From positions 1 through 22,419 of the IMG/VR virus record IMGVR_UViG_3300030451_002458: a DNA stretch of 22,419 nucleotides; one strand, written 5' to 3'. How positions within the stretch are numbered: position 1 is the stretch's first letter; the number at the start of each line of letters is the position of its first letter. Below are positions 1,213 through 4,549 of this stretch, piece after piece. Both the position numbers and the translations under genes were made by a program. The stretch is from a virus. The notes beneath the pieces are model-generated. The model had not been told where the DNA came from, did no database searches, and saw nothing but the letters and a program-made list of their open reading frames with translations.

Positions 1213-1914
1213 CTACAAGAATATCTTCTGAGAGAGTCGATCTTCCTCCTCATACATCCCTGCCGTAATGAATGGTGCTTGTAATACATCTGCTGGTATA
1301 ATGATTGCTCTGTTATATTCCAATCCAAACATCATAGACTGTTTCCATGCAAGAACTGATTCATAAACATCTTTCCTGAGTGAGAAGGCATCAGCATCTG
1401 CGTACATGTTCTTCATGTCCTCATGAATAGTATTCTTACCAGCAAATGCCCAAATGTCAGTGCCACCCATTGAGGGCATATTTTTGTTGAGAAAAATTTC
1501 TACGGTAAATTGAAACGGACTTGGGTTTTCGGGATAGTAAGCCTGAAATGGTAAAAGTTGCAATGGTTGTTTAGCAACTGTGTCCTGATTCATCCAATCT
1601 ACCAAGAAAGGCATGACTGCCATATTCTTTTCAATATATTCCTGATCCGTTGGTCTACCCCAAAACTGCTCATCATAACATAGTTCTTTGAATAATCTCT
1701 CAGTATTTTTCCTTAACTCTTCTGTTTCATATACCGATCTTGTTCCTGAGTGATGATTTATAAGATTTATATCTTCTCTCTTTGGTAACTTAAATGCTAA
1801 CTCTCTAACCTTATCTGGATTTTTGTAAAAGTTATCTATCAACATAGCGTTCCTTTTTTCAGGTCCTATGTCAGTTATAGCAATAACTTCTAACTCATCA
1901 CTTAATTCAAACAT
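1213..1914 (-). CDS. Hypothetical protein, possible degenerate 2OG-oxygenase-like fold
   Basis: A 233-aa protein with AAGGA about 5 nt before its ATG; its start overlaps the upstream 62-aa gene by 8 nt. Residues about 25-42 (LIDNFYKNPDKVRELAF) match the pattern that opens many phage and marine bacterial 'NFY.dPd.VR..A' proteins (DUF6445-like, related to prolyl-4-hydroxylase-like jelly rolls). The end (NRAIIIPADVLQAPF... RLSQKIFL) matches the last two strands of that fold. I cannot find an HxD...H iron triad, so either it is not catalytic or the assignment is wrong. It lies a few genes from three clear oxygenases, which fits a diverged relative. The family call is tentative; the gene itself is secure because of length, spacing and ribosome binding site. 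Confidence 0.6.
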   Translation of the reverse strand: MFELSDELEVIAITDIGPEKRNAMLIDNFYKNPDKVRELAFKLPKREDINLINHHSGTRSVYETEELRKNTERLFKELCYDEQFWGRPTDQEYIEKNMAVMPFLVDWMNQDTVAKQPLQLLPFQAYYPENPSPFQFTVEIFLNKNMPSMGGTDIWAFAGKNTIHEDMKNMYADADAFSLRKDVYESVLAWKQSMMFGLEYNRAIIIPADVLQAPFITAGMYEEEDRLSQKIFL

Positions 1915-2095
1915 CTTTGTTCCTTTCTTCCACTAAATGTTCAACTTCTGAAGCAACTTTATCCATCACCTCTCTTACATCAGTTCCTGATCCAGAGGTA
2001 TGGTAGTAGTTTTGTCCTTTCGGAGCATAGTGTCTGGTGTGGAGTGTCCAATGCCACTGCTTTACACCCTTAGAATACCAGAATTGTAAACGCAT
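1907..2095 (-). CDS. Small hypothetical protein, 62 aa
   Basis: An aromatic- and histidine-rich small protein that begins MRLQFWYSKG and has a predicted C-terminal helix (DVREVMDKVASEVEHLVEE). The first half could form a beta-hairpin (FWYSKGVKQWHWTLHTR). There is a faint, unproven resemblance to DUF1508/YegP-like small domains, which have an 'aromatic-K-G-W-W/F-L' hairpin followed by 'SGxGY'. It is the first gene after the tmRNA and its terminator, and it overlaps the next gene by 8 nt in a different frame, which suggests translational coupling. A TATAAATT box lies just upstream. I do not recognise a function. Confidence 0.55.
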   Translation of the reverse strand: MRLQFWYSKGVKQWHWTLHTRHYAPKGQNYYHTSGSGTDVREVMDKVASEVEHLVEERNKDV

Positions 2096-2103
2096 AAAGT
2101 TTT

Positions 2104-2111
2104 AATTTATA
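2104..2111 (-). promoter_or_regulatory. Candidate late promoter (TATAAATT)
   Basis: The minus strand reads TATAAATT (one mismatch to TATAAATA) between the GC hairpin at 2119-2133 and the ATG at 2095. The ATG lies only 8 nt downstream, so a transcript from here would be almost leaderless. Alternatively this AT stretch may simply be the tail of the terminator. Confidence 0.3.
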
Positions 2112-2118
2112 TATGAAA

Positions 2119-2133
2119 GGGGGCAGAGCCCCC
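2119..2133 (-). terminator. GC-rich hairpin after tmRNA, possible terminator
   Basis: A perfect 6-bp stem GGGGGC / GCCCCC closes an UCU loop on the minus strand and is followed by UUUCAUAU. The U-tract is short, so termination may be partial. It could instead be a protective 3' structure of the tmRNA coding piece that is processed later. Confidence 0.45.
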
Positions 2134-2136
2134 TAT

Positions 2137-2162
2137 GGTCACTTGGTTAACAAGGAGTGACC
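2137..2162 (-). other. Stem-loop in 3' part of tmRNA coding piece
   Basis: GGTCACT (2162-2156) pairs with AGTGACC (2143-2137) over 7 bp, with a second possible short stem CTTG/CAAG inside. It follows the tag stop codon by 16 nt, where tmRNAs have PK2 or a related element. It is probably a structural part of the tmRNA rather than a separate signal. Confidence 0.5.
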
Positions 2163-2178
2163 GATCCCCGATTGCCCC

Positions 2179-2253
2179 TTAGGCAGTAGCGAGTTCGCTA
2201 GTGCGGGCAAATTCTCTTGTGAGAACACGAGAGAATGCTACGATGTTGTTCGC
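2179..2253 (-). other. tmRNA tag-peptide reading frame, 24 aa
   Basis: The resume codon is inferred as GCG (Ala) at 2253-2251, because from here the frame reads ANNIVAFSR, the hallmark start of cyanobacterial tags. Translation continues VLTREFAR, then TSELATA, and stops at TAA 2181-2179. Host tags that I recall are about 16 residues and end in VAA; this one is longer and ends ATA. The codons of the extension are the ones that build the hairpin 2187-2200. Confidence 0.7.
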
Positions 2254-2428
2254 AGCGGTGTCGATGTCTTTAGCATCTGTGTTTGCTCTCCGAGCAGGTT
2301 TTCAGTCATGCTCCTTATACCCTGTCGAAACCATTGCACCCCCTAGCTTATGGAGGTGAGGGGAGTCGAACCCCTGTCCAAAATATCGGTGGCACCACCT
2401 ACATGTCTTTTTAAGTCATACATCAGGA

Positions 2429-3016
2429 CTATACAATCCATTGTATCCAAGAATATCTAGATCCTTTTGTAACTGGAGTTACTTCATGTGGAAACAAATA
2501 CAGTGCTGGGAATACTAACACACCTCCCTTCTTTATGGTGACAGTATGTTCTTCCCAAAATACAAAATCACCACCTTCAAAGTCATCATTCAACACACCT
2601 ACTACACTTGTGACAGGTATGCCTCTGAACTGTCCTTGAAAGAAGTCACGAATATGATCGTAGTGAGGACTAAGATAATCGCCAACATTATACTTGTTGA
2701 ATTTTATACCCGAACTGGCTTCCCAAAATGAACCACCTCCACCAGACCCAACACTATAATAATTATATTTTTCATGGAAGGCATAATGCAACTCCTCATT
2801 TACATGTGGTTGTATTATAGATGTAGCCTCTGGGCAATCTACAGTTGATTGCATCTTTGAATCTTTGTCAAGATCAACCTGTTCATGATCTTGATACCAC
2901 ATGAAATCTCCCCACTGGCGAGAATCCAAATGAGAAACTATCTCATCACATTCCTGATGAGATAGCAAATCATATTCAAATATATGATCTTTAAGATTCG
3001 GGTACTTTAGGACCAT
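2429..3016 (-). CDS. 2OG-Fe(II) oxygenase (prolyl 4-hydroxylase type)
   Basis: A 195-aa protein with the full signature of the P4Hc family. H118 and D120 lie in SPHYDHIRD, H177 in LFPHEVTPV, and R187 in KGSRYS is the 2-oxoglutarate-binding arginine; GGDFVFW forms the typical strand between them. Such enzymes hydroxylate protein prolines or other residues using 2-oxoglutarate, O2 and Fe(II). T4-like cyanophages often carry several, with unknown substrates. It is the last protein gene before the tmRNA. Its start overlaps the end of a possible 49-51-aa ORF (2991-3146). Family assignment is firm; the substrate cannot be read from sequence. Confidence 0.88.
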   Translation of the reverse strand: MVLKYPNLKDHIFEYDLLSHQECDEIVSHLDSRQWGDFMWYQDHEQVDLDKDSKMQSTVDCPEATSIIQPHVNEELHYAFHEKYNYYSVGSGGGGSFWEASSGIKFNKYNVGDYLSPHYDHIRDFFQGQFRGIPVTSVVGVLNDDFEGGDFVFWEEHTVTIKKGGVLVFPALYLFPHEVTPVTKGSRYSWIQWIV

Positions 3017-3140
3017 CTTTTAGCACCTTACTACCAGTTTGTTTGGCAATATATGCCGCTAACTCTGGAGTTTCTTCCCATTCCCAGATTTGATTATGTT
3101 GTGGGTTCTTCTTTTGAATCGTGAGTGTGCGTTTTACCAA
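2991..3140 (-). CDS. Possible small protein with TTG start, about 49 aa
   Basis: The stretch 3017-3093 would otherwise be a gap between tightly packed genes. A minus-strand frame here encodes a plausible peptide (HNQIWEWEETPELAAYIAKQ, then TGSKVLKDGPKVPES) and stops at TAA 2993-2991, overlapping the next gene by 26 nt. It has no ATG. The best candidate start is TTG at 3140, preceded by a strong AGGGAGG about 7 nt upstream; a TTG at 3146 is the alternative. Its 5' third overlaps the end of the 100-aa gene in another frame. Amino-acid composition looks protein-like, but comparison with other cyanophages is needed to exclude chance. Confidence 0.45.
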   Translation of the reverse strand: MVKRTLTIQKKNPQHNQIWEWEETPELAAYIAKQTGSKVLKDGPKVPES

Positions 3141-3396
3141 TTTCAACCTCCCTAGTTAGTAATTCAATTTCTTTTTCAAGGCCAATAATCCTGAGTTCTG
3201 CATCATTAGCCGATCTCTCCAGTGCCCTTACTGAATGAGATATTTTTGCAATCTCTTTTCCAAAGGCATCAATGTTTTGGAGAAGTAAGTTATTTCCAAA
3301 TGACTGAGGGTGTCCCTGTTCTGCGTAGGCAGTATCTTCTACTTCCTCACATCTCTTGAGATATTCTTCTCTTGTCATTCGATTGTTTTCAGTCAT
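3094..3396 (-). CDS. Hypothetical coiled-coil protein, 100 aa
   Basis: A charged, probably all-helical protein. Residues about 45-87 (AFGKEIAKISHSVRALERS then NDAELRIIGLEKEIELLTREVE) show heptad-like spacing of I, L and V, indicating a coiled coil, and the C-terminus is short and polar. Its ATG overlaps the TGA of the upstream oxygenase-like gene by 4 nt (ATGA), a typical coupling. No domain is recognised. Location between oxygenase genes in the late operon gives no clear role; an oligomerising accessory protein is only a guess. Confidence 0.6.
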   Translation of the reverse strand: MTENNRMTREEYLKRCEEVEDTAYAEQGHPQSFGNNLLLQNIDAFGKEIAKISHSVRALERSANDAELRIIGLEKEIELLTREVEIGKTHTHDSKEEPTT

Positions 3397-3920
3397 GAGT
3401 AGTCCATGTAAATGTTTCCAGATATTGTAGTTCCCTCATTGCCTGAGTTTACCATGTGCATTAAGAATGATGGAAATATAATCATACTTCCAGGTCCTAA
3501 CTGCGGCTTATAGTCTAACGCAAACTGAGGTAAAGTGCAACCAAAGTGATTCTGAATGTTATGGATTGAAGGATTAAAGAAAGATGTTCTTGATGTCACA
3601 TCAACATAGATCACAAAACTCCACTGACTATGAGGGTGTATGTGAGCATCTTGATAGTCATGTTTTTGATAAACATTCTTCCATATATGTCCAAACCTAG
3701 CGTCCTTCCCCATCAATTGAGCTGGGTATAGGTTTCTCTCAACAACCTCTGACAAATATTGCCACACCGTTGTTGGAACCTCCTCTGGTTTTTGAGTTCC
3801 AAAACTAGAAGGAACTCCCGAATCCCACGTTGGTTCTAGTGGAGCAAAGGGGATATCTTCAAATTTACTAAGTTCAACCGTATCTTCAAAGATAGGGATA
3901 CTAAAGATTTCTTTTTTCAT
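3393..3920 (-). CDS. Putative 2OG-Fe(II) oxygenase, HxH-type
   Basis: A 175-aa protein. Its core (DAHIHPHSQWSFVIYVDV, residues 91-108) and later GPGSMIIFPSFLMHMVNSG (143-160) match the pattern of the TIGR02466 family of putative 2OG-Fe(II) oxygenases ('N.H.HP....G.YYV' and 'P..L.H.V'). Candidate iron ligands are H93 or H95 with H97, and H155. The usual 2OG-binding arginine near the end is not obvious (EGTTISGNI), so activity is less certain than for its neighbours. The start overlaps the upstream oxygenase stop by 4 nt (ATGA), so the two are likely co-translated. Confidence 0.72.
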   Translation of the reverse strand: MKKEIFSIPIFEDTVELSKFEDIPFAPLEPTWDSGVPSSFGTQKPEEVPTTVWQYLSEVVERNLYPAQLMGKDARFGHIWKNVYQKHDYQDAHIHPHSQWSFVIYVDVTSRTSFFNPSIHNIQNHFGCTLPQFALDYKPQLGPGSMIIFPSFLMHMVNSGNEGTTISGNIYMDYS

Positions 3921-4549
3921 TTTGAAGGTAGAGGATCAGTTCTCATTGTTTTATATACCAGACTCGCTCTGAGTCCACGATATACTTCATTTGGTGGCAT
4001 ACCATGATGCCAAATGTTTCCCTTAAAGAATACAATTCTGCCTGGGGCAGGGTCTACACCTTGCCACTCATCATTTAATTTATACTTTATTTGTCCTCCC
4101 CACTCTGGTGCCCAATGTTTATTGACATAGTAACAGAAACTGAGTCCGTTGTCACATGTACAATCTTGATGAGGCGTTGTATTATGTATCCACTGTTGTC
4201 CATTTATCATTATCTCTCCAAGTTCTACCTTGAATGGGAGAGTGTGCATAACTGCACTGTAGATCATTCTAAAAGCACTGTCCTGTGCAATGTCACTTCT
4301 TTCTGGCGGGAATATCTGTTGTTTTAAAGCTGGTGCTTCATCCCATGTAGGGTCTGCACCTACATCTCTACCATCTTCAGCATACCCACTGGTATGACCC
4401 CAGAACCAATTATATCCAGTCATCACCATATCATGTACATGATGAATGAACCAGCCTGGGAATAAGTTGTCTATAACATAGATTTCATCTTTAGATAGAT
4501 CATACTTTGACCAATCTAGAAACTCTCTATTTCCATCAATGTAAATCAT
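3917..4549 (-). CDS. 2OG-Fe(II) oxygenase
   Basis: A 210-aa protein with a clear facial triad: H127 and D129 in TPHQD, and H181 or H182 in NIWHHGMPP. R191 or R194 follows as the 2-oxoglutarate anchor. PGRIVFFKGNIWHHG is the classic double-stranded beta-helix end motif. The short N-terminal region (IYVIDNLFPGWF) is a typical family opening. It belongs to the diverse cyanophage oxygenase group; the product might be hydroxylated virion or host protein, but nothing in the sequence tells which. It overlaps the upstream gene by 14 nt and the downstream one by 4 nt. Confidence 0.85.
   Translation of the reverse strand: MIYIDGNREFLDWSKYDLSKDEIYVIDNLFPGWFIHHVHDMVMTGYNWFWGHTSGYAEDGRDVGADPTWDEAPALKQQIFPPERSDIAQDSAFRMIYSAVMHTLPFKVELGEIMINGQQWIHNTTPHQDCTCDNGLSFCYYVNKHWAPEWGGQIKYKLNDEWQGVDPAPGRIVFFKGNIWHHGMPPNEVYRGLRASLVYKTMRTDPLPSK

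Follow-up and report, generated by a model that had tools for sequence, protein, structure and literature searches.

The minus strand of a viral DNA stretch of 22,419 nucleotides (referred to below, at its full length, as the window) reads ANNIVAFSRVLTREFARTSELATA followed by a stop codon at positions 2253-2179. The preliminary description of this locus took the peptide for a 24-residue proteolysis tag with a cyanobacterial start and an altered end, which might allow a phage to rescue ribosomes without destroying the tagged proteins. The locus thus raises the question of what kind of gene carries the tag, where the tag begins, and whether its additions and its unusual end are shaped by RNA structure, by selection on the peptide, or by both.

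The permuted tmRNA gene and its relatives

According to both ARAGORN and Rfam, the reading frame lies inside a tmRNA gene, as had been supposed. The minus-strand gene (2423-2120) matches the Rfam family cyano_tmRNA (RF01851) with 127.9 bits against a gathering score of 70 (E 8e-35) and over the full covariance model (1-288 of 288), which makes it a member of this family. The Rfam family tmRNA_permuted (RF04321) matches the same gene with 92 bits, and ARAGORN independently calls tmRNA* at 2440-2088 on the minus strand, with the tag AKDIDTAANNIVAFSRVLTREFARTSELATA. The gene is a permuted two-piece gene of the cyanobacterial type: the T arm, the 3' acceptor strand CACCTCC (2358-2352) and the discriminator A, together at 2379-2351 and with CCA not encoded, precede the 5' acceptor strand GGGGGTG (2343-2337). 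As read from the sequence, the two acceptor strands pair fully, including G3-U70, the pair that confers alanine identity. A host-like pseudoknot-1 (pk1) segment, ACCTGCTCGGAGAGCA, was located at 2299-2284 by alignment to RF01851, and the gene is closed by a terminal hairpin, GGGGGCTCTGCCCCC, at 2133-2119, placed by the Rfam alignment and its coordinates.

The pieces are separated, from the discriminator to the 5' strand, by an intervening segment of 7 nt (2350-2344), and a loop this short raises the question of how it gets cut. By a rough measure, a simple pairing search that mis-set some phage and host loci (phage values 0, 2, 27, and 70), left 32 phage loci unassigned and is relied on for the window value alone, the segment is 5-7 nt long in most placed phage relatives and commonly longer in hosts. 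In locus L040 (2147-2577, minus strand), a tRNA-like sequence stands directly before the 5' acceptor strand and the 3' acceptor piece is not clearly placed. A run of small genes surrounds the tmRNA at 1213-4549 of the window; in cyanophage S-SSM7, two of the tmRNA neighbours are annotated as 2OG-Fe(II) oxygenases. A sigma-70 promoter at the gene was rejected, as the scan gave one weak site, inside the gene, and shuffled sequences give more.

Within the phage collection, the window is most closely related to two T4-like cyanophages of Synechococcus WH8109, S-SSM7 and S-SSM6a, which carry the same tmRNA gene with 88 % identity over 97 % of the query. The phage side of the comparison comprised 175 sequences: two groups of viral contigs (119 and 45), 9 regions from isolates, the window itself, and a copy of it, L120. 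The last two are identical, counting separately in numbers of loci and merged in numbers of distinct sequences. Counted phage loci are the 154 of these 175 with a complete permuted gene call. One set was recruited by the codons of ANNIVAFSR, and the loci of that scan and of one other are those among the matches listed. Without use of the tag, 91 loci were recruited, of which 12 lacked a complete permuted call, leaving 79 tag-blind loci. Host loci were recruited via pk1; 115 of 120 had a permuted call, and 114 remained after L213 had been dropped for its non-matching tag. The collections are phylogenetically redundant, and the counts below do not represent independent events.

Resume codon, extension, and hairpins of the tag

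The tag length of 24 residues that was first proposed probably has to be revised, as the open frame extends seven codons further upstream (GCU AAA GAC AUC GAC ACC GCU). Two observations favour GCU at 2274 as the resume codon: the ARAGORN call, although its choice of resume codon is heuristic and lengthened some host tags as well, and the A at position -4 (2278), the equivalent of E. coli A86. An A at -4 is the main frame determinant in E. coli, according to passages of PMC2481249. It is present at the upstream candidate in 91 of 91 distinct phage sequences and at the downstream ANNIV codon in 0 of 68, both among the matches listed. The tag is therefore probably 31 residues long, AKDIDTA-ANNIVAFSR-VLTREFARTSELATA (2274-2182), encoded with its UAA stop (2181-2179) in a frame of 31 codons at 2274-2179. 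The preliminary description had missed AKDIDTA, an N-terminal extension of seven codons (2274-2254). Among the matches listed, 108 of the 154 phage loci have an extension of exactly seven codons and 5 have one of a single codon; in 41 there is none. Its first codon specifies Ala in all 34 distinct sequences, the third base being A, T, or C.

Alternatively, translation might resume at the GCG of ANNIV, the upstream 21 nt being an untranslated structured spacer. Host tags do start with ANNIV or ANKIV, the upstream stretch holds a covarying hairpin as a spacer might, and parts of PMC2481249 report that the distance from pk1 is not critical in E. coli. The absence of A at -4 of ANNIV (0/68 against 91/91 upstream) nevertheless makes a 24-residue tag improbable, as does an extension that in this class is exactly seven codons long (108 loci), has an open frame, and always starts with an Ala codon with a free third base. 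The extension of the 31-residue tag itself begins with ANNID in 3 of 43 distinct extension sequences (L040, L048, and L116), which makes it likely that the extension arose by in-frame tandem duplication of the start of the tag.

The same extended architecture is found in the tmRNA regions of S-SSM7, S-SSM6a, Sf-FS3, S-CAM1, S-CAM3, and Marine virus AG-345-P14, with a tail and end that differ from those of the window; the S-SSM7 tag is AKSSDTAANNIVAFSRILTREFARTDELVTA. In these isolates the tmRNA stretch is annotated as a hypothetical protein or left unannotated. The GenBank hypothetical proteins SSSM7_025 of S-SSM7 (L121:1543-1761) and CYVG_00208 of S-SSM6a (L122:700-861) correspond to the tmRNA translated in the frame of the tag, with the tag as their C-termini; T4-GC 1277 looks spurious. 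Extended tags occur with two pk1 types, CCTGCTTGGATAAGCA and TGTTGACGGGACA, and identical tails are seen on different backgrounds (L004, L042, L127, L283, L290, and others), which suggests that tmRNA modules recombine among cyanophages.

The resume codon of the window lies in a hairpin, GAUG-CUAAAGA-CAUC (2277-2263), which is part of the minimum-energy fold. All 37 distinct extended sequences pair their bases -3 to +1 with a segment located 8 to 12 nt inside the frame; with shuffled upstream halves, the mean was 24.7 and the maximum 32 (2000 shuffles). The stem exists in three versions, AGAUG/CAUC(U), AUCUG/CAGAU, and AGACG/CGUC, both sides of which change together. In a fixed register, where 8 rows count as mostly unpaired because their loop is one base larger, 85.6 % of the cells were paired with 16 double changes, and none of 500 shuffles scored as high. 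The first two versions occur on several shared 5'-domain backgrounds. The stem must have switched at least twice to give these versions, but they do not call for dozens of switches.

All four core pairs of this hairpin were seen in 0 of 114 host loci and in 1 of 17 unextended phages. Hosts, too, can place the resume codon in a stem, which then begins at its first base, and in 36 of the 39 distinct host segments -4 stays unpaired; the phage peculiarity is thus a shift of the pairing into the upstream bases and not pairing as such. The hairpin must open, because the paired bases adjoin the A that is to be read by SmpB or the ribosome. A short helix including the resume codon, helix m, was likewise proposed in PMC1168896, parts of which describe it as predicted by energy only and weakly supported. 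In the relatives of the window, by contrast, a helix containing the resume codon is present in the extended tag with compensatory changes (37/37 distinct extended sequences), and evidence of this type is now available for a helix that could earlier be predicted from energies only.

Over the core of the tag, the hairpin GCUGCGA-ACAACA-UCGUAGC (2256-2237) shows 90 of 91 pairs in 13 distinct sequences, including a switch between A-U and U-A, against a shuffle maximum of 88. A third hairpin, UAGCG-AACU-CGCUA (2200-2187), precedes the stop codon. In 25 distinct 24-mers, 87.2 % of its cells are paired, with a covariation of 0.483 versus 0.271 in shuffled and at most 0.113 in slid alignments. In most TREL-type and long TREF tails, 5 nt separate it from the stop; in tails of the PVS..., PVK..., and PFSK... 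types the stem is absent in most cases. The earlier proposal that the extra codons build a helix around the stop codon is thus partly borne out by a covarying hairpin before the stop, but most host sequences already have a short stem nearby. An additional long-tail hairpin, AUUCUCU...AGAGAAU (2236-2211), comes from the minimum-energy fold; its lower stem is nearly invariant and provides no covariation support. The minimum-energy fold of the window contains all tag-region hairpins, with a fold z-score of -4.9.

The core behaves differently from the extension at the codon level. Its conservation was judged solely on loci recruited without the tag (33 distinct cores), in which the codon entropy is 0.30, 0.15, and 1.18 bits at positions 1, 2, and 3. 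The script used keeps tags matching AN[NK][IV]V.F, yet none of the 154 phage tags lacks AN[NK][IV]V. Low entropy at the first two codon positions points to selection on the peptide; by this measure the ANNIVxFxR core is kept as a peptide and hence translated. In the extension the values are 0.76, 0.53, and 1.04 and the core pattern is absent, in line with a constraint at the RNA level. With hairpins in the extension and before the stop, the additions to the tag look shaped largely by RNA structure.

The altered C-terminus and its expected recognition by ClpX

Comparison of host and cyanophage tags upholds the cyanobacterial origin of the core and also the altered C-terminus ELATA (2196-2182), which recurs in relatives and occurs in 0 of 114 host tags. 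Ala-Ala ends all 114 host loci (17 distinct ARAGORN tags) and only 10 of the 79 tag-blind phage loci (6 of 38 distinct tags); the other ends of these phage loci are LV (24), TA (22), AV (15), TV (5), and PA, SV, and LA (1 each). The window tag, with Thr-Ala, does not have the C-terminal Ala-Ala of a host-type ssrA degron. Among the matches listed, 153 of 154 phage loci have Ala or Val as the last residue, and charged ends do not occur. Cyanophage tags vary in length from 14 to 32 residues. As called from these genes, cyanophages have several ends that the hosts lack, -ATA among them. Five of seven other phage loci gave an ARAGORN tmRNA, with the ends VA, VA, VA, AA, and AA. As this comparison covered the phage side only, loss of Ala-Ala was not drawn as a general rule for phage tmRNAs.

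The ClpX motifs GYVGED, SITRDV, and GGRKHP, which should make contact with the two terminal alanines, are present in 4 of 4 host ClpX proteins and in two aligned PDB chains. We take them to hold Tyr153/Val154, Thr199/Val202, and Arg228/His230 of E. coli ClpX. These residues are named in PMC7652416, parts of which report that, for E. coli ClpXP, changing the last or the penultimate Ala raises KM with little effect on Vmax. As the motifs are kept in hosts, a lower affinity would be expected when Thr replaces the penultimate Ala. Weaker capture of -ATA by ClpX is, by this analogy, plausible and a fair expectation, and abolition is not indicated, because the ends stay small and uncharged. The suggestion of rescue without destruction of the tagged proteins goes beyond this evidence, given that the last residue is nearly always Ala or Val and never charged.

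The tmRNA might also work with a C-terminus whose change is functionally neutral, Thr-Ala, Ala-Val, and Leu-Val being degraded about as well as Ala-Ala and the changes following RNA structure or drift. We put the chance of this at somewhat below even. That all ends stay small and uncharged would suit such neutrality, and variants of the E. coli LAA end such as AAV are still degrons, though slower ones, in the accessible portion of PMC9382460. In all 55 Thr loci whose stem has at least 4 of 5 pairs, the A with which the penultimate Thr codon starts forms the closing pair of the stop hairpin with U, and penultimate Ala codons go with other hairpin closings (10 loci). RNA structure may thus contribute to the penultimate Thr, which counts against a purely adaptive reading. 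Neutrality is at odds, however, with the invariance of Ala-Ala in hosts and its rarity in phages, with the conserved ClpX motifs of the hosts, and with the raised KM of either Ala change.

Proposed function and comparison with known systems

The gene, its tag frame, the hairpins, and the host/phage contrast were established computationally. As a whole they are probably best explained by a working two-piece phage tmRNA with a 31-residue tag, RNA-shaped additions, a core kept as peptide, and an end of lowered ClpX affinity. A T4-like cyanophage would encode such a tmRNA, of cyanobacterial descent; host enzymes would process it, and charging with alanine would follow. Together with host SmpB, the charged tmRNA would enter stalled ribosomes, the upstream GCU (2274) would be placed in the A site, and the 31-residue tag would be added. 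The seven-codon extension and part of the tail would exist largely to build RNA hairpins, of which one would draw the first base of the resume codon and the three bases before it (-3 to -1) into pairs, one would lie over the ANNIV core, and one just before the stop. ANNIVxFxR would be retained as peptide, and the C-terminus would have left the invariant Ala-Ala of the host for ends such as ATA, VTA, VAV, and ALV that are small and uncharged and that probably lower rather than remove ClpX affinity. A search of 5 related isolate genomes found SmpB in none of them, which would make activity dependent on host SmpB, and a phage-encoded SmpB or ClpP as partner was rejected (0 of 5 for each). From these data we infer activity in infection, use of host SmpB, and slower degradation.

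That the gene is a decaying or passive host-derived copy without function seems very improbable. In its favour, partner genes were not found in the related phages. Such a copy would hardly be expected to show covariation, conservation of the core at the amino-acid level, intact acceptor pairing and the fold z-score reported above, or to have homologues in the isolates S-SSM7 and S-SSM6a. A more far-reaching extension of the working-tmRNA explanation, which we offer tentatively and rate as rather unlikely, is that a captured tmRNA has been remade as a rescue device tuned to infection. A duplicated covarying hairpin would gate the resume codon, the ClpX-facing end would be detuned, and ribosomes would be recycled, with tagged products either broken down slowly or passed to a different factor, one that recognises the conserved ANNIVxFxR core. 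The functional idea of the preliminary description is a plausible one of two live readings.

Two-piece tmRNA genes are already known from marine phages. The methylophage Melnitz encodes one, as the window does; its tmRNA is of the alphaproteobacterial type and linked to a glutamine riboswitch, unlike that of the window (PMC9004378). Passages of the same paper count 53 two-piece genes among 133 distinct phage tmRNAs, 50 of them from marine or aquatic samples. In the available parts of a 2014 survey, phage tmRNA was reported only from mycobacteriophages and Bacillus phage G (PMC4131195), and a 2025 database lists, in the section available, 79 phage sequences (PMC11915505). The tags, extension, ends, and resume hairpin of cyanophages are not discussed in the accessible text of the open-licence PMC literature searched, including PMC9004378, PMC4236655, and PMC3037559, and in that literature the tag architecture of the window appears to be undescribed.

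The nearest known system is the two-piece tmRNA of Prochlorococcus and Synechococcus (RF01851). The structure of the cyanobacterial two-piece molecule was reportedly studied in 2002. The host tmRNA shares with the window the permuted gene, the pk1 segment, the tag core AN[NK]IVxFSR and, in most sequences, a short stem near the stop. It differs in its tags of 16 residues, which end in VAA or GAA and have no N-terminal extension, and in the resume hairpin of the phage kind, seen in 0 of 114 host loci. The cyanophages offer a natural series of tags on one scaffold, from the host-like VAA through VTA and ATA to VAV and ALV, and the sampled hosts never vary the last two residues; this contrast makes it possible to test how degron strength and phage fitness are linked. 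Compared with these systems, the gene in the window is ordinary in kind, a phage tmRNA, and unusual in its architecture.
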